Positions 1 through 35,464 of a stretch of DNA of 48,611 nucleotides are shown piece by piece. The first letter of the stretch is position 1. The number at the start of each line of letters is the position of its first letter. The notes below the pieces were generated by a model. That model saw nothing but the letters and a program-made list of their open reading frames with translations. It did not search any database and was not told where the DNA came from. This stretch comes from Acidobacteriota bacterium. Lineage in GTDB: Bacteria > Acidobacteriota > Vicinamibacteria > Vicinamibacterales > UBA2999. The position numbers were made by a program, and so were the translations under genes. The stretch covers positions 1 through 48,611 of the forward strand of contig JAUSDY010000080.1 in the NCBI GenBank assembly GCA_030650395.1, given 5' to 3'.

Positions 1-28
1 ACGCGACAATCGACGCGCCCATCGATCG

Positions 29-1552
29 ATGTGTCGTGGCATCGTGATGGTTGCCGCGGCCCTGCTGGTTTCGCTCGCTGCTGCCGCCGAGGCGGGGCCA
101 TCGCGCGCCCGCCTGTCGTCGGACCTCGCCAAGCACCTCGACTCCGGTTCCACCGCACCGGTTGACCTGATCGTGTCGGGCCCGCCCGAACGCATCGAGC
201 GTCTCGCGCAGCGTCATGGCCTGGTGGTGAAGAAAGTGTTGAGCTCGGGCGCGCTGCTGACCGCGTCGCGGGCCGCGTTCGAGTCGTTGGTGGAAGACGA
301 GGAAGCCGGCGCGGTATCGGGCAATTCGATCGTGCGCTCGCAGATGGCGGTGACGACGAGCCTGACGGGAGCGGATGCGGCGTGGGCCGGCGAAGTTGTA
401 TCGCTCGGGTCGGTGGACGGCAGCGGCATCGGCGTCGCGGTCATCGACAGCGGCATCGCCAACCATCCGGCGCTCAAGGGCCGCGTCGTCGCCAACGTCG
501 ATTTCACCGACGACAACGGCACCGGCCAGGACCTCTACGGCCACGGCACGCACATCGCCGGCATCATCGCCGCGCGCGGCTTCAACAACTCGGCGGAAGG
601 TGCGGACTCGGGAATGGCGCCGGCGGCGCATCTGATCAACCTGAAGGTGCTCGGCGCGGATGGCAGCGGCTACGTCAGCGATGTCATCGCGGCGATCGAC
701 TTCGCCATCCAGTACCGCACGACATTCGGCATCAAGGTGCTGAACCTGTCGCTGGGCGCGGCGCCGACGCAGAGCTATCGGGACGACCCGCTGTGCCAGG
801 CGGTCGAGCGCGCCGTGCGCGCGGGGCTGGTGGTGGTGGCCTCGGCTGGCAACTACGGCGAGTTCAAAGGCAAGCAGGTTTACGGCAGCATCACCTCGCC
901 CGGCATCTCGCCTTACGCGATCACGGTCGGCGCGCTTCGGACGCAGGGCACCGTGGACCCGAGTGACGACGAAGTGGCGCCGTGGAGCTCGAAGGGGCCG
1001 ACGCTGGTGGATCACATCGTCAAGCCGGACCTGGTGGCGCCGGGCTCGAAGATCATATCGACGGCGGCCGAGGGCGGGGCGCTGATGGCGCAGTTCCCGG
1101 ATCGGTTATTCGACGGCCCCGGCGCGCGCGACTACTTCTCAATGAGCGGCACCAGCATGGCGGCGGCGGTAGTCAGTGGCGCAGTCGCATTACTGCTGGA
1201 TGGGCAGCCGACGATGACGCCGTTGCAGGTCAAGCTGGCGCTACAGGCGAGCGCGGATTTCATGCTTTCGGCGGGTTTGCTGGCGTCGGGCGCCGGCAGT
1301 CTCGACCTTGCGGACATCGATCAGATTCCTAATCTTTACCCAAGCGACAAGGGCTTTTTGACCGGCTTCGCGATGGTTGTGCCGAACCCTGACGGAACGT
1401 CTTCTCAGATCCTGATTTGGGGCGACATCCTCATCTGGGGCGACACTACATCGGCCGACGACATCTTGATCTGGGGTGACATCCTTATCTGGGGCGACAC
1501 CACATTGGCCGACATCCTGATCTGGGGCGACATCCTCATCTGGGGCGACTAG
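29..1552 (+). CDS. Secreted subtilisin-like S8 serine protease with C-terminal ILIWGD repeats
   Basis: 507 residues. It begins with a signal peptide (hydrophobic run about residues 7-20), then an I9-like propeptide region (about 45-105), then an S8 catalytic domain. The triad is visible as D140 (VIDSG), H172 (GHGTH) and S376 (GTSMAAA), with the oxyanion Asn in SAGN near 272-275. It should be an exported, self-processed endopeptidase. The catalytic domain ends near residue 430. A short linker then leads to six copies of ILIWGD (residues 461-507), the last ending exactly at the TAG stop. Start at 29 is the first ATG and gives a proper signal peptide; ATG at codon 7 is an alternative. No gene precedes it in the window. 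The protease family is certain; the role of the tail is unknown and could be anchoring, aggregation or a peptide reservoir. Confidence 0.95.
   Translation: MCRGIVMVAAALLVSLAAAAEAGPSRARLSSDLAKHLDSGSTAPVDLIVSGPPERIERLAQRHGLVVKKVLSSGALLTASRAAFESLVEDEEAGAVSGNSIVRSQMAVTTSLTGADAAWAGEVVSLGSVDGSGIGVAVIDSGIANHPALKGRVVANVDFTDDNGTGQDLYGHGTHIAGIIAARGFNNSAEGADSGMAPAAHLINLKVLGADGSGYVSDVIAAIDFAIQYRTTFGIKVLNLSLGAAPTQSYRDDPLCQAVERAVRAGLVVVASAGNYGEFKGKQVYGSITSPGISPYAITVGALRTQGTVDPSDDEVAPWSSKGPTLVDHIVKPDLVAPGSKIISTAAEGGALMAQFPDRLFDGPGARDYFSMSGTSMAAAVVSGAVALLLDGQPTMTPLQVKLALQASADFMLSAGLLASGAGSLDLADIDQIPNLYPSDKGFLTGFAMVVPNPDGTSSQILIWGDILIWGDTTSADDILIWGDILIWGDTTLADILIWGDILIWGD
1409..1549 (+). repeat. Six in-frame ILIWGD hexapeptide repeats at the protease C-terminus
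   Basis: The hexapeptides are arranged as three tandem pairs separated by short TTSAD- and TTLA-type spacers. The amino-acid motif is invariant, while codons vary synonymously (Leu as ctg/ctc/ttg/ctt, Ile as att/atc, Gly as ggc/ggt). This suggests that the peptide rather than the DNA is conserved. A related WG-rich tail on some other secreted bacterial proteases is something I recall only loosely; I know of no assigned function. Confidence 0.93.
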
Positions 1553-1567
1553 GGCCCCCCGCCAGAT

Positions 1568-1577
1568 TATCTAGATA
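1568..1577. promoter_or_regulatory. AT-rich palindrome TATCTAGATA between protease and micro-ORF
   Basis: A perfect 10-bp palindrome lies in a locally AT-rich patch, 15 nt after the protease stop and 23 nt before the nine-codon ORF. In this GC-rich window such a patch could be an operator or part of a promoter (TAGATA as a weak -10), but no good -35 is visible. Confidence 0.3.
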
Positions 1578-1600
1578 GACCCTCTATAGGAGACATGACA

Positions 1601-1630
1601 ATGAGCCGATTGATCATTTGGGGCGAATAA
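1601..1630 (+). CDS. Nine-codon ORF MSRLIIWGE with strong Shine-Dalgarno, echoing the ILIWGD repeats
   Basis: The ORF reads MSRLIIWGE then TAA. AGGAGA at 1588-1593 lies 7 nt before the ATG, one of the best ribosome-binding sites in the window. The last six residues, LIIWGE, match the ILIWGD unit of the protease tail 50 nt upstream in pattern ([IL][IL]IWG[DE]). An in-frame ATG at 1595 would give 11 residues but sits too close to the SD. The ORF is in the same frame as the protease and separated from it by one TAG and 16 sense codons, so it could instead be the severed last repeat of a longer protease, or be reached by readthrough. It has no signal peptide. Translation is plausible but unproven. 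Confidence 0.5.
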   Translation: MSRLIIWGE

Positions 1631-1684: not shown

Positions 1685-3583
1685 ATGAATCTCTCACCGC
1701 GAGGCCAGCTGTACGTAGTCGTGGTAGCTGCGGCGGGCCTTCTGATCGTCGGCCACTGCATTACGATACTGCTGGCCAACCCGATTGGGTGGGAGTGGGT
1801 GGTCCTCGCAGGTTTAACACTACTCAGCGGGTCTTTCACCGTCCGAGTTCCGTCGTTCCAGGCCCGCATCTCGGTGTCCGAGACCTTCGTTTTCACATCT
1901 GTACTGCTGTTTGGAACGTGCGCGGGAACCCTCACGGTCGCGCTGGATACTCTCGTAGCAGCCTTGAGTTCGCGGCGGCGAGCAAGAGAGCCGCTGAGAA
2001 TCCTGTTCAATTTATCGTCAGGCTCTCTCTCCATTTGGGCTGCGGCTCACATCTTTTACGCCACGGCCGGCATTGCCCCACTATCGATAGCCCCAACACG
2101 CGTCCCGGACTTGCTCTGGCCGCTTGTAGCCATGACATCGGTCTACTTTCTTGTGAACAGCGGTCTGGTCGCAGTGGCTCTGGCTACAGAGCGAAATGAA
2201 AGCGCATTCACGATCTGGCGCAAGCTCTTTCCGTGGCTCTCGATCAACTACTTCGGCGGGGCTTCCGTAGCAGCGCTACTCGTGTCGTACACGAGGTCCG
2301 TGGACTTCATGGCCCTCAGTATCATCGTCCCGCTCCTCGTCATCTCCTATCTGACGTACAAGACGGCTCTTGGTCGAGTAGAAGACGCCGTAGTGCACGT
2401 GGATGAAGTCAATCGCCTGTACCTGTCGACAATTGAAACGTTGGCAACGGCCATTGACGCGAAGGATCAGGTTACCCACGGCCACATCCGACGAGTCCAA
2501 AAATTCGCCATCGGGTTGGCTAGAAAACTAGGGATCCAGGATCCGCTTCAGCTGAAGGCGCTGGAAGCCGCTGCCTTGCTGCACGACATGGGCAAGATTG
2601 CGGTTCCCGAGCACATCCTCAACAAGCCCAGTGGCCTGACAGCCGGTGAGTTCGACAAGATGAAGCTGCACGCCAGCGTCGGAGCAAACATCCTGTCGTC
2701 CATCAAGTTCCCGTACCCAGTGGTGCCTATCGTCCGGCATCATCACGAAAGCTGGGACGGCACCGGTTACCCCGACGGCCTTCGCGGCACGGACATTCCG
2801 TTGGGAGCGAGGATTCTAGCCGTAGTCGATTGCTTCGACGCTCTTACCTCGGACCGGCCGTACCGACCCCGCTTGGCGGATCATGAAGCGGTCGAGATCC
2901 TGATGAAGCGTCGCGCCATCATGTACGATCCGCTGATTGTCGATAGGTTCATTGCGACGAAGGACGAACTGTCGGAGGCAATCGGCGATGGAGCAGCGAC
3001 CCCCAATAGCCTCGAGGGCTTCCTCAGGCCGATACTGCCGCCTAGCCACGCGGCAGAAGCGGGTTCCGCAAAAGCGATCGCCTCTGCGCTTAGCGTGGTG
3101 ACAAAGCTCGAGCTGCGTCAGGCTGTGAGGACGGTTTTGACCGCAGTCAACAAAGAAACCTCGTGTGTCTTGTCGGTCGCCTATCTCAAAGACAAGTCCA
3201 GAGATGAACTGGTCATCATCGATGCTCTCGGCCAGAACGCTGATAGCTTGATCGGCATTACTCTTCCAATTGGCTCGAAAGTCACGGGCTGGGTCGCCGC
3301 CAACGGACGCGCGATCCTCAATACCGATGCGCGATTAGAAATGCCTACGGCAGTTGGAACGGCGAGCCTAATCTGCGCGGCGCTTCCGATTCACTTCGCA
3401 GCTGAAATTGCGGGGGTGCTGCTTGTGGTTCGGAGCCAGAGTCAGCCGTTTGAGAGCGGTGAGATCGACTACCTGGAGAGTATCTGCCGCAAGTTCAACG
3501 AAACTCCCCTTCGGGAGCTATTGTCGTCGGCATTGACCAGCGTTGCGATCGAACGTTCTGGTAGGCGCCCAAGCGTTCATTGA
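1685..3583 (+). CDS. Membrane HD-GYP domain protein with C-terminal GAF domain (probable c-di-GMP phosphodiesterase)
   Basis: 632 residues. About 230 N-terminal residues form several hydrophobic helices (starting near residue 9), like a MASE-type membrane sensor. An HD-GYP domain follows: H300 D301 within LLHDMGK, a downstream HHH near 348-350, and the signature GYP at 361-363. The C-terminal 150 residues resemble a GAF domain (ITLPIGSKVTGWV near 520). HD-GYP enzymes hydrolyse c-di-GMP at a binuclear metal site, and the ligands visible here look intact. The likely role is a membrane-tethered sensor that changes c-di-GMP or acts through its GAF domain. It lies 54 nt after the micro-ORF and upstream of the sigma54 activator on the same strand. 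Start at 1685 has GGAAG about 9 nt upstream. Confidence 0.9.
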   Translation: MNLSPRGQLYVVVVAAAGLLIVGHCITILLANPIGWEWVVLAGLTLLSGSFTVRVPSFQARISVSETFVFTSVLLFGTCAGTLTVALDTLVAALSSRRRAREPLRILFNLSSGSLSIWAAAHIFYATAGIAPLSIAPTRVPDLLWPLVAMTSVYFLVNSGLVAVALATERNESAFTIWRKLFPWLSINYFGGASVAALLVSYTRSVDFMALSIIVPLLVISYLTYKTALGRVEDAVVHVDEVNRLYLSTIETLATAIDAKDQVTHGHIRRVQKFAIGLARKLGIQDPLQLKALEAAALLHDMGKIAVPEHILNKPSGLTAGEFDKMKLHASVGANILSSIKFPYPVVPIVRHHHESWDGTGYPDGLRGTDIPLGARILAVVDCFDALTSDRPYRPRLADHEAVEILMKRRAIMYDPLIVDRFIATKDELSEAIGDGAATPNSLEGFLRPILPPSHAAEAGSAKAIASALSVVTKLELRQAVRTVLTAVNKETSCVLSVAYLKDKSRDELVIIDALGQNADSLIGITLPIGSKVTGWVAANGRAILNTDARLEMPTAVGTASLICAALPIHFAAEIAGVLLVVRSQSQPFESGEIDYLESICRKFNETPLRELLSSALTSVAIERSGRRPSVH

Positions 3584-3745
3584 GGCGACAATGCCTCACC
3601 CGCGGCTCGAATAGGGCTGCCCGTCGAAGCGAAGCGCCTCCCGCAAACCCGTCAATTCATCAGTTCGACCATCCTGCGGTGTTTGTTGCGTGCAACCCTC
3701 ATTACGACGCGTGGGCCCAGCGTGTATGCTGTCGTTCGTCGCTCT

Positions 3746-6544
<2,799 letters not shown>

Positions 6545-11442: not shown

Positions 11443-11526
11443 TTCTGCCTTCTGCCTTCTGCCTTCTGCCTTCTGCCTTCTGCCTTCTGCCTTCTGCCTT
11501 CTGCCTTCTGCCTTCTGCCTTCTGCC
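11443..11526 (-). repeat. Twelve perfect TTCTGCC heptamers directly upstream of the asparaginase start
   Basis: Twelve uninterrupted 7-bp units (GGCAGAA on the minus strand) run to the base before the ATG at 11442. They fill almost all of the gap to the kinase stop at 11533. The last unit gives AGAAGG as an SD-like sequence 5 nt before the ATG. Perfect tandem identity suggests recent expansion and likely length variability. Confidence 0.95.
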
Positions 11527-11532
11527 TTGTGA

Positions 11533-21887: not shown

Positions 21888-21915
21888 TTCTGCCTTCTGC
21901 CTTCTGCCTTTTGCC
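21888..21915. repeat. Short TTCTGCC heptamer array (three perfect, one variant)
   Basis: Three perfect TTCTGCC units and one TTTTGCC lie between the SnoaL-like stop (21919) and the DUF1549 start (21848). The unit is the same as in the twelve-copy array at 11443, showing that the heptamer recurs at separate loci. Confidence 0.85.
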
Positions 21916-21918
21916 TTC

Positions 21919-22596
21919 CTAGTCGCCGGGTGGACGCCGCTTCGGCTGAGGCTCGACTTCGGCTTTTTCGGCATCGGCGAAATAGATCCGCACGCGCCGG
22001 ATCTTGCCGTCGACCAGCTGGAAAAAGGCGGCGCCCGGCACCACCCACCGCTTGCCGCCTGTCCTGAGCGTAGTCGAAGGGCCGCTTGTCCCGAGCGCAG
22101 TCGAGGGGCCTGCCCTGAGCGCAGTCGAAGGGCCTGCCCTGAGCGCAGTCGAAGGGTCACGGTCGGTGTAGGCGGCGACGATCTGGATCGCGATCGCGGG
22201 ACCTTTCCACGGACCCGCCGCGACGTGCAGCAGCTCGGCCGTCTCTTCGTTCGCGGTTTCCGTCTCGATGCGATACGTCATCCCCTGCTGACTCGCGGCG
22301 ATGCGCGAGGCGAGCACGCGAATACCGTCATGGCCGCGATACGTGGCGGTACCGCGCTGGTGCGGCAACGGGCCGGTAATGTGGAGAGCGTCAGGCGCGT
22401 AGAGTGCCAGCAGCTCGTCGATCGCCTTCGCATTGTCGCCGCCGAGCGCGTTCCAACGTTGCACCCAGGCGCGCACGGTCTGCTCGTCGCGTTCGGCGTT
22501 CGCCGGCGGTGCCGGAGGTGATTGCGCCGCGAGCGGCGCACCGAGCAGCGCCACCAGCGCAAGCATGACGAGCCGCGCCGCGTTGTGGTCCTTCAT
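21919..22596 (-). CDS. Exported SnoaL/NTF2-like protein with repeat-derived insertion
   Basis: 225 residues: signal peptide (LVMLALVALLGAPLAAQ), then an NTF2/SnoaL-like cone domain. Typical blocks are QTVRAWVQRWNAL, IDELLALYAPDALHITGPL and a C-terminal AAFFQLVDGKIRRVRIYF. Such domains may be enzymes or binding modules; the ligand is unknown. Between two predicted strands lies an insertion of about 34 residues made of four PSTALRAG-like units encoded by a tandem DNA repeat, each a multiple of three bases. The family without insertion is usually about 140-160 residues. It is first in a minus-strand set leading to DUF1549/DUF1501/SUMF1. No clear SD. Confidence 0.75.
   Translation of the reverse strand: MKDHNAARLVMLALVALLGAPLAAQSPPAPPANAERDEQTVRAWVQRWNALGGDNAKAIDELLALYAPDALHITGPLPHQRGTATYRGHDGIRVLASRIAASQQGMTYRIETETANEETAELLHVAAGPWKGPAIAIQIVAAYTDRDPSTALRAGPSTALRAGPSTALGTSGPSTTLRTGGKRWVVPGAAFFQLVDGKIRRVRIYFADAEKAEVEPQPKRRPPGD
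22061..22156. repeat. Four tandem copies of a CCTGAGCGyAGTCGAAGGG element inside a CDS
   Basis: Copies start at 22061, 22088, 22112 and 22136 (periods 27, 24, 24), each about 21 nt plus a short GCC/CTT spacer. The core has inverted ends (CCTGAG / GTCGAAGGG-type). All spacings are multiples of three, so the host SnoaL-like frame stays open. Confidence 0.9.
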
Positions 22597-33343: not shown

Positions 33344-35404
33344 TTGGTGACAGACAGAAAGCGACTCCGCGGACAGATGCTGGCCGGGTGCGCCGTGATT
33401 CTGGTGCTGGCGGGGTCCGGTGCACCAGACGGCCAGACGGCACCGCCGCCCGCGGCCACCGCGCCTCCCTCGTCCGTGACCGCGCTGCAGTCGGAGCGCA
33501 ACGCCAACTACGACATCGACGTCACGCTCGATCCGGGCACGCGCATGCTGACCGGGAGCGAGATCATCACCTGGCGCAACACCGGGGCGGTCGCCGCCTA
33601 TTCGCTGCGGCTGCATCTCTATTGGAACGCGTTCCGAAACAGCGAGTCGACCTGGATGAAGCAGCGGCAGCTGGCGGGCGACAATCCGGTCGCCAAGTGG
33701 GCGGCCGATGATTTCGGTTACACCGACGTCACAGGCATCCAGATTGTCGGACCTGATGGCGCGCCGTCGGTTGACCTGAAGCCGACATTCCGCGCGATCT
33801 CGCCGAGCGATCAGAATCAGGAGGATCGATCGCTGGCGCTGGCGCAGTTGGCCACGCCCATTCAACCGGGTGAGACGCTTCGCCTGCGCGTGACCTGGAA
33901 GGGAAAGTTTCCGAAGAACTTCGATCGCACCGGCGCGATCGGCAACTACTTTTTCGTATCGCAGTGGTTCCCCAAGCTCGGCGTGTTCGAGCCTGGCGGG
34001 TGGCTGGCGCACCAGTTCTTCGCCAACAGCGAGTTCTATTCCGATTTCGGCCGCTACGACGTGCGCATGACCGTGCCGTCGGGATGGGTGGTGGGCGCCA
34101 CCGGCGTCCAGCAATCGCAGACCGATGCCGGGTCAGGAAAGGCGACGCACCGATACGTGCAAGACGACGTGCACGATTTCGCGTGGACGACGAGCCCGGA
34201 TTTCATCGAGCGCACCGAACGGTTCGAGCATGCCGGCTTGCCGCCGGTGGAGATGCGGCTGCTGCTGCAGCCTGAGCACGCCGGGCAGGCCGATCGCCAT
34301 TTCGCCGGCACCGCCGCCGCGCTGCGCTATTACGGCGAGTGGTTCGGCCGCTACACCTACGGTCACATTACGATCGTCGACCCGCCGTTTCAGAGCGAGT
34401 CTGGCGGCATGGAATATCCGACGCTCTTTACGGGCGGCACGCGCTGGCTGGCGCCGCGCGGTGGAAACGAGCCGGAGTACGTTGTGATTCACGAAGCCGG
34501 CCACCAGTTTTGGTACGGGATGGTGGCGAACAACGAGGTCGAGCACGCCTGGCTGGATGAAGGGTTGAACGAGTACTCGGACGCCCGCGTGCAGGCGGAG
34601 GCGTTCCCGCCCTTTCATCTCGTGCAGCGGTTTTTCGGCGATTTCATCCCGTGGCGGTTCGACGACATCGAGCTCAAGCGCGCCACTGATCTCAACTGGA
34701 TGAACAGCTATCGGCGATCGGGGGATCGTGATGCGCTGTCGTCGCCGACGCGGCTGCTGTGGCCCGGCACGCACCAGGCGCAGTCGTACCATAAGGCCGC
34801 GCTGATGCTGCACACGCTCGAGCGGCGGCTTGGCTGGGACACGATGCGGCGGGTCATGGCGACGTTCTTCGATCGCTGGCGGTTCAGGCATCCGCAACCC
34901 GAGGATTTCTTCGCGGTCGTGAATGAGGTCACGCAGCAGGACTACACGTGGTTTTTCGATCGCGTTTATCACAGCTCCAACCGCTTCGATTACGCGATCG
35001 AGCGGTTCGACAGCGAGCCGGTCGAGTCACGCGGCTTGATGGATTCCCCCACCGGCCCGACGTTCCAGGAAAAGAAGGTCGAGGGCATGTTTCGAACGAC
35101 GGTGGTGGCGCGGCGGCTCGAGGCCGGTCAGTTTCCAGTGGATGTGCTGACCACGTTCAGTAACGGCGAACAGGTCCGCGAGAACTGGGACGGCTTGGCG
35201 CGGTGGCAGGTGTTCAGCTACGACAAACCGGTGAAGGCCGTGTCGGTGCAAGTCGATCCTGAACGCGTGCTGTTGCTCGACACCAACTACACGAATAACA
35301 GCCGCGAGATGGAGCCGGCCACCGAGGCTGCGGCGACGAAGTGGTCGCTGCGCTGGATGGTCTGGCTGCAGGACCTGCTCATGACTTACGCATTCTTTGT
35401 GTGA
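33344..35404 (+). CDS. M1-family zinc metallopeptidase, exported
   Basis: 686 residues. N-terminal signal (RKRLRGQ then LAGCAVILVLAGSGA); the start is TTG 33344 or GTG 33347, since the basic n-region would be lost from the ATG at 33377. The zinc site is complete: H383-E-A-G-H387 and E406 in WLDEG. An upstream SESGGMEYPTL block corresponds to the GxMEN exopeptidase motif of M1 enzymes but reads GGMEY, so specificity may differ. The family removes N-terminal residues from peptides. The final hydrophobic WMVWLQDLLMTYAFFV could be a membrane-proximal tail. A decamer repeat begins right after its TGA. Confidence 0.9.
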   Translation: MVTDRKRLRGQMLAGCAVILVLAGSGAPDGQTAPPPAATAPPSSVTALQSERNANYDIDVTLDPGTRMLTGSEIITWRNTGAVAAYSLRLHLYWNAFRNSESTWMKQRQLAGDNPVAKWAADDFGYTDVTGIQIVGPDGAPSVDLKPTFRAISPSDQNQEDRSLALAQLATPIQPGETLRLRVTWKGKFPKNFDRTGAIGNYFFVSQWFPKLGVFEPGGWLAHQFFANSEFYSDFGRYDVRMTVPSGWVVGATGVQQSQTDAGSGKATHRYVQDDVHDFAWTTSPDFIERTERFEHAGLPPVEMRLLLQPEHAGQADRHFAGTAAALRYYGEWFGRYTYGHITIVDPPFQSESGGMEYPTLFTGGTRWLAPRGGNEPEYVVIHEAGHQFWYGMVANNEVEHAWLDEGLNEYSDARVQAEAFPPFHLVQRFFGDFIPWRFDDIELKRATDLNWMNSYRRSGDRDALSSPTRLLWPGTHQAQSYHKAALMLHTLERRLGWDTMRRVMATFFDRWRFRHPQPEDFFAVVNEVTQQDYTWFFDRVYHSSNRFDYAIERFDSEPVESRGLMDSPTGPTFQEKKVEGMFRTTVVARRLEAGQFPVDVLTTFSNGEQVRENWDGLARWQVFSYDKPVKAVSVQVDPERVLLLDTNYTNNSREMEPATEAAATKWSLRWMVWLQDLLMTYAFFV

Positions 35405-35464
35405 GGTTCAGAAAGGTTCGGAAGGGTTCTGAAAGGTTCTGAAAGGTGCAGATAGGTTCTGCTT
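35405..35464 (+). repeat. Six tandem 10-bp repeats (GGTTCTGAAA type) spanning a stop-to-start junction
   Basis: Six decamers begin on the base after the M1 stop: variants GGTTCAGAAA, GGTTCGGAAG, two exact GGTTCTGAAA, GGTGCAGATA and GGTTCTGCTT. The fifth contains the GTG start of the next gene (35446). Each copy boundary creates GAAAGG, an SD-like sequence, every ten bases. Confidence 0.9.

Follow-up and report, generated by a model that had tools for sequence, protein, structure and literature searches.

A conserved nine-codon gene beside a WG-tailed S8 protease in Acidobacteriota, and its possible role in peptide signalling

Why would an S8 protease end in six copies of one short motif, and why would a nine-codon open reading frame immediately downstream encode a version of that motif again? 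The question is posed by the left end of the window—by which we mean the whole 48,611-nt stretch of DNA analysed here—where the following features succeed one another:

29..1552, plus strand: S8 (subtilase) protease with a hydrophobic stretch near its N-terminus (Pfam PF00082, Peptidase_S8, E 2.4e-52)
1409..1549, plus strand: six-unit ILIWGD C-terminal tail of the protease, predicted to be disordered (sequence; AlphaFold2)
1588..1593, plus strand: Shine-Dalgarno (SD) sequence AGGAGA, 7 nt 5' of the micro-ORF ATG (sequence)
1601..1630, plus strand: micro-ORF MSRLIIWGE, including its stop (sequence; conserved in 44/110 HD-GYP loci)
1685..3583, plus strand: MASE9-like membrane region, HD-GYP domain (c-di-GMP phosphodiesterase family) and weak GAF match (Pfam)
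3683..6544 (first ATG 3746), plus strand: TPR superhelix, small alpha/beta domain, sigma54 AAA+ domain and Fis-type HTH (Pfam; model)

Taking these from left to right, the reading frame of the protease is open at the window's left end, where the true start of the protein may precede the window, and closes with a stop at 1550–1552. The Asp/His/Ser residues of a subtilase (D140, H172 and S376) are invariant across 15 aligned proteases. The C-terminus reads ILIWGDILIWGDTTSADDILIWGDILIWGDTTLADILIWGDILIWGD, i.e. six ILIWGD units, and the ATG of the micro-ORF (position 1601) lies 48 nt beyond the protease stop; the earlier note had described just such a six-unit tail with a separate, SD-bearing MSRLIIWGE frame downstream of it, and the sequence confirms this. 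The motif is thus ILIWGD in the tail and LIIWGE in the micro-ORF. Tandem repeats of other kinds are found elsewhere in the window: two arrays of the 7-bp unit TTCTGCC, at 11443–11528 (12.3 perfect copies) and 21888–21918 (4.4 copies); around four copies of a 24-bp repeat, GCCTGCCCTGAGCGCAGTCGAAGG, at 22057–22156; and around six copies of a ~10-bp repeat, AGGTTCAGAA, at 35404–35461.

Is so short a frame a gene at all? Searching 162 genomes of the order with the N-terminus of the HD-GYP protein gave matches in 112, and the best 110 places by E-value (to 1.5e-32) were inspected for a frame of 7–10 residues, lying just 5' of the HD-GYP gene and ending in two mostly aliphatic residues, a tryptophan and 0–2 further residues. 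The earlier note would have given up its proposal had homologous loci lacked the short ORF; the opposite is seen, with 44 of the 110 loci carrying one, in 43 genomes and seven families (20 loci in f1, 10 in f5, six in f10, five in f15 and one each in f2, f8 and f11). Two further examples, in genomes G034 (L072) and G009 (L073), came from a search with the protease and stand outside the 44; alignment A1 excludes L064 and L080, and alignment A2 excludes L064 and L075.

Across these loci the start codon is ATG or GTG and the stop is freely TAA, TAG or TGA, whilst 41 of the 44 have an SD core at a spacing of 5–9 nt, one has it at 12 nt and two have none. The 29 nine-codon copies give a consensus that is mostly M-x-x-[LIV]-I-[IV]-W-G-[ED], and in the same 29 loci conservation takes the shape of codons: second positions are invariant in codons 4–7 and 9 (0.86 identical in codon 8); third positions, those of the W and G codons aside, are 0.28–0.57 identical; the 30-nt flanks are mostly 0.23–0.33 identical; and the SD region reaches 0.35–0.81, its maximum of 0.81 falling at position −9. 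In most f1 loci the peptide departs little from LIIWG[ED], and most of the others end in IVW plus 0–2 residues. A weak GCCGATA-like run 3' of the stop in several loci, with identity up to 0.46, is what one might cite in favour of a conserved DNA element, part of a promoter for example, that is open by accident; set against codon-shaped conservation, a well-spaced SD and free choice of stop codon, however, this reading is partly refuted already and we consider it scarcely credible.

Background matches were gauged with a regular expression for SD-preceded ORFs of 6–12 residues ending [LIVTFMA][IVFLA]W plus 0–2 residues, run over both strands of the window and 40 loci (1,308,384 strand-bases). 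Of its 22 matches, 21 fall on the micro-ORF (in 20 loci, one of which is matched from two starts) and one is unrelated; the expression was written from these same ORFs, such that the figure measures background and not discovery. A scan with an exact 30-base pattern through 84,980 species, each represented by a single genome, making no use of neighbouring genes, gave 34 matches where roughly 17 would be expected by chance (a rough figure, assuming uniform bases): in 20, WG repeats lie on the upstream side and an HD-GYP homologue on the downstream side, with S8 matched as well in 19 of them, whilst the remaining 14 have neither HD-GYP nor WG repeats and were taken as chance. Most of the 20 belong to genomes already in the HD-GYP survey, making this an independent search but not independent data. 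A scan of the phylum at fixed SD spacing found 3 of 396 genomes, and was too strict to bear on other orders, missing known carriers such as G004. A chance ORF is rejected by the codon-shaped conservation, the single unrelated regex match and the 20 HD-GYP-linked matches of the motif-only scan.

From comparative sequence evidence, then, we conclude that the micro-ORF is a real gene, one that is predicted to encode a leaderless nine-residue peptide. The suggestion that the peptide is under selection, originally made from the tail repeats, is upheld by those repeats and more strongly by the micro-ORF, conserved as it is across seven families. Even if signalling plays no part, a coding sequence of roughly nine codons maintained over seven families is a very short gene for which the comparative evidence is unusually clear, and it falls under the size that gene callers usually report.

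How, then, does the peptide relate to the tail? In the window, the six units have the same protein sequence and differ only by synonymous codons; in the two codons before the Trp, pairwise comparison gives 18 synonymous and 0 non-synonymous differences. Counted in the same pairwise fashion over 40 loci (mixed-unit tails included, and with L139 contributing no in-frame unit), the figures are 1438 synonymous versus 704 non-synonymous; the window's synonymous-only pattern holds in 24 loci with differences but is looser elsewhere, and is not universal. Tail units are similar within a species and differ between species (IIWGD, IIWAD, IVWSD, LVWGD, IIWTD, IFWGQ). Residues 410–507 of the protease have AlphaFold2 pLDDT values below 50, by which the tail is probably disordered and accessible to proteolysis; its repeated sequence is consistent with a multi-copy peptide precursor. 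Self-processing of the protease, as invoked in the earlier note, finds no evidence in our data. In three cases (L139, L206 and L141/L064), the tail leaves frame within the repeats, through slippage, phase variation or assembly error.

The micro-ORF had also been proposed as a cytoplasmic version of the tail peptide. Lacking a leader, its product would indeed be cytoplasmic, and the frame is SD-preceded and shares the motif; within a species, however, the sequences of micro-ORF and tail differ at individual residues (a TIIWAD tail accompanies a LIIWGE micro-ORF, for example), such that ‘same motif’ stands and ‘same peptide’ fails. The residue before the Trp does covary weakly between the two (12/8 versus 4/15 over 39 loci, p 0.022), an agreement confounded by descent, for which family history could account.

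One could imagine that the nine-mer mimics the tail in order to silence the protease, or to solubilise the tail before export, and the shared motif together with the adjacency and common direction of the two genes would fit. In f1, however, tails diverge (IIWAD, IVWSD, LVWGD) where the peptide stays LIIWG[ED]; one genome, G143, retains the micro-ORF with no protease; and 25 loci couple a WG-tailed protease to an HD-GYP gene with no micro-ORF between them. An inhibitor or chaperone of the protease is, on this showing, very unlikely.

Those 25 loci become informative when set within the wider gene order, which in the module runs from a divergent oligopeptide importer through the WG-tailed S8 protease, the micro-ORF and the membrane HD-GYP gene to the sigma54 activator. 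The window opens at the end of its contig, in an overlap of exactly 141 nt (window 1–141) with a second contig of the same genome, C2. Just outside the window, C2 carries divergent genes for a permease and for a protein that binds oligopeptides (SBP_bac_5, 3.9e-81); this match and that to BPD_transp_1 identify the system as Opp, and in micro-ORF loci oppB/oppC stand beside oppA. To the right, the 1685..3583 product matches HD_5 (9.1e-40) and MASE9 (1.2e-5), with GAF_2 under its cut-off. The micro-ORF precedes the HD-GYP gene by ~27–99 nt in the 44 loci (the search having been confined to that position), with a spacer that varies freely in length and sequence.

An S8 gene lies within 3 kb upstream in 65 of the 110 loci, and 40 of those 65 have the micro-ORF. 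Amongst these S8 loci, where testable, a downstream sigma54 activator (judged here from its AAA+ part alone) accompanies the micro-ORF in 27/27 cases versus 1/13 without it, and a divergent upstream oppA in 34/38 versus 2/23; the loci being orthologous, P values on such counts overstate independence, and the counts are best read as one conserved module with some losses, and not as many independent events. In a phylogeny covering 107 of the 110 HD-GYP proteins, the micro-ORF loci need 6 changes versus 33.6 in shuffles. The 25 S8-bearing loci lacking the micro-ORF have WG tails of 3–15 W-x units and are mostly of a second type, from which importer and activator are mostly absent, and in which the gap between S8 and HD-GYP is 6–46 nt in 18, 65–74 in 3, 198 in 1 and 769–790 in 3. 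In L191, L195, L202, L211 and others of the second type, several tails finish in a short non-repeat sequence such as PDGR, PDAR or PDPR.

The peptide therefore tracks the importer and the activator and not the HD-GYP enzyme as such, which bears on a reading in which it binds the MASE9-like region, tuning c-di-GMP with the TPR activator uninvolved. The HD-GYP gene does adjoin the micro-ORF in 44 of 44 loci, G143 included (loci that were selected by HD-GYP), and the same holds for 20 of the 34 motif-only matches, the others being chance; given the 25 loci in which WG-tailed S8 and HD-GYP do without the peptide, mostly with neither importer nor activator, we regard a ligand of the membrane enzyme as a decidedly unlikely explanation. 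Importer, TPR-sigma54 activator, sigma54-type promoter and constant HD-GYP partner together make the signalling reading more specific.

A sigma54-type promoter was sought upstream of the protease as TGGCAC-N5-TTGC with at least 9 of 10 positions matching and GG and GC fixed. Amongst 38 micro-ORF loci, such a site faces the protease in 23, is reversed in 3, and is absent at this cut-off in 15; of 20 loci without a micro-ORF, four have one, among them a fused locus described below (G089). Sites are concentrated in the gap between oppA and S8, at 0.605 per kb strand versus 0.0275 elsewhere in the same 34 oppA loci, with 23 of the 34 gaps holding a site on either strand; the −12 part is mostly GTGC or CTGC, not TTGC. 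For the genome of the window, such a site maps to C2:39,688, which is 366 nt before the window's first base. An operon whose last gene encodes a sigma54 activator suggests positive autoregulation. A GCCGATAA-like stretch, which we take to resemble a sigma28 −10 element, is seen just 3' of the micro-ORF stop in L072, L073, L074 and L078.

The main rival to signalling is a leader (arrest) peptide, in which stalling near W-G-E-stop would control HD-GYP and activator in cis, likeness to the tail being a by-product. Known arrest leaders lie just upstream of a gene and have a conserved C-terminus and stop; here, too, the micro-ORF sits just 5' of HD-GYP in 44 loci, with its C-terminus and the presence of a stop conserved, and G143 retains it beside HD-GYP though S8, Opp and nearby activator have gone. 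Yet the sequence 3' of the ORF gives no folding signal against simple shuffles (z averages −0.5 and falls below −2 in 6 of 44 loci), there is no run of five T's within 70 nt in the 44 loci, the spacer is unconstrained in length and sequence, and both the resemblance to the tail and the linkage to Opp and activator are left unexplained. We consider a leader peptide unlikely on balance. Attenuation was rejected, the 44 loci offering neither RNA structure nor T runs; arrest that needs no RNA structure is still compatible with them.

Several natural variants bear on the signalling reading. G089 (L137/L261) lacks a separate micro-ORF, and its protease instead ends ...GDTKSIIVWD, resembling its relatives' micro-ORFs MKRIIVWD and MKTIFVWD; the locus is nested among micro-ORF loci with 96–98 SH-aLRT support, although as a single metagenome contig it may be a mis-assembly. 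G143 has the micro-ORF MTSRTIVWG with a good SD before HD-GYP, no S8 upstream, an oppA remnant comprising residues 225–271 only, and no sigma54-activator match in the 10.6 kb downstream; a search of this whole genome (89% complete) with the window's TPR region was empty, the probe being a weak one that also misses G089. A micro-ORF with neither S8 nor nearby activator counts against the signalling reading: the receptor may be something other than the activator, or else the locus is decaying. Elsewhere, G014 has the activator with both micro-ORF and importer missing, L206 has a frame-shifted tail and a micro-ORF, and 4 of 38 testable micro-ORF loci have no adjacent oppA.

Could the activator hold a peptide? 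By its domains (Sigma54_activat 1.9e-65, HTH_8 1.7e-9, and TPR_1 at 3e-5, under its cut-off), the product of 3683..6544 is classed as an enhancer-binding activator. The 606 residues from ATG 3746 to the AAA+ domain (3746–5563) are modelled with confidence (pLDDT 86.7) as a long TPR superhelix followed by a small alpha/beta domain. A sigma54 domain was found in all 20 activators scanned, of 27 in modules, and a TPR match (E ≤0.01) in 15 of the 20; 440–580 residues precede the AAA match in all 27 but one frame-split gene. The best VIA-align/Foldseek matches to the model are eukaryotic TPR proteins (APC/C, Z up to 28.1), and the best bacterial or phage chain is NprR-NprX (VIA-align Z 22.3, 320 aligned residues, rmsd 6.1), with Rap (Z ~21), AimR (~18–19) and MalT (18.9) also matching. 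In sequence, the relation to the RRNPP family is that of generic TPRs (RapJ 1.7e-4, NprR 0.022), behind many unrelated TPR proteins. Judged from the predicted model, the TPR fold could hold a peptide.

With gene, synteny, domain identities and promoter-like site established, the module can be read as a self-regulated peptide-signalling circuit, built from a leaderless peptide and a multi-copy form of its motif on a secreted protease; we infer the mechanism, and put the proposal at about an even chance. A sigma54-type promoter would drive protease, micro-peptide, HD-GYP enzyme and activator together. Proteolysis would release copies of the motif from the disordered tail of the secreted protease, and the divergently encoded Opp system would import such tail-type peptides, for binding by the TPR groove of the activator. 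Sigma54 transcription, that of the operon itself included, would then respond to the imported peptide, as would c-di-GMP via the HD-GYP enzyme, whilst the cytoplasmic nine-mer may act as a built-in ligand and so set the threshold, or may instead compete with the imported peptide. Were this so, the WG-repeat tails of these proteases would gain their first testable role.

The earlier note knew of no described system of this form, and our searches, which covered open-access papers, found no description either; parts of the arrangement nevertheless have counterparts. The yeast alpha-factor is made from a multi-copy peptide precursor, and like such precursors the module presents tandem, near-identical peptides on a secreted protein; unlike them, the carrier is itself a protease and has no recognised processing site. 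Systems of the RRNPP family (NprR/NprX, Rap/Phr, AimR), whose peptides are imported by Opp and whose receptors have an N-terminal HTH or a Rap-type domain as effector, share with the module a TPR superhelix (VIA-align Z ~18–22; the window's activator model agrees with RRNPP in fold only), a small peptide gene and genes for an Opp importer. They differ in that the effector here is a C-terminal sigma54 AAA+ domain with Fis HTH, and in that the micro-peptide carries no secretion signal: with 7–10 residues there is no room for one, and the protease tail would be the sole secreted form.

SpeB of Streptococcus pyogenes is a secreted protease, and the system to which it belongs, SIP/RopB/SpeB, resembles the module in its peptide gene. 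In the account drawn upon here, the leaderless LCP class in Firmicutes has an eight-residue peptide encoded by a 24-bp ORF and a cytosolic receptor, RopB, and SIP is reported to function without canonical export and import (PMC10518010). That system and the module have in common an ORF of 8–9 codons with its own SD, a leaderless hydrophobic/aromatic product and a TPR regulator nearby; an ultrasmall, leaderless, usually SD-bearing ORF of 7–10 residues is what we find in 44 of 110 loci. The operon's regulator, however, is no RopB-clan receptor of HTH plus TPR, joining TPR, sigma54 AAA+ and Fis HTH instead, and the module further differs in belonging to Acidobacteriota, in its adjacent Opp genes, in the repetition of the motif on the protease and in the HD-GYP gene of the operon. 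PatS and HetN of heterocyst-forming cyanobacteria provide a precedent for one pentapeptide common to a short peptide and a protein, according to the part of the source drawn upon (PMC7761841), and as there described, short peptide and larger protein carry one motif and act on one regulator, HetR. That motif is RGSGR, which is absent from our 44 micro-peptides, and the regulator is another one with other domains than ours; tandem copies and an importer gene do not figure in the same part of the source, and a protease-borne peptide array, a sigma54 activator and an HD-GYP protein are all missing from the portions of the LCP and PatS/HetN accounts used. Tentatively, and at somewhat less than even chances, we suggest a new class of peptide signalling in a diderm phylum, in which a secreted protease carries a pheromone array as its tail, an intracellular nine-codon product serves as co-ligand or antagonist, Opp imports the released copies, a TPR-sigma54 activator with an autoregulated sigma54 promoter reads the balance and c-di-GMP is coupled to the outcome; if true, peptide circuits with an intracellular receptor would extend beyond Gram-positive bacteria.
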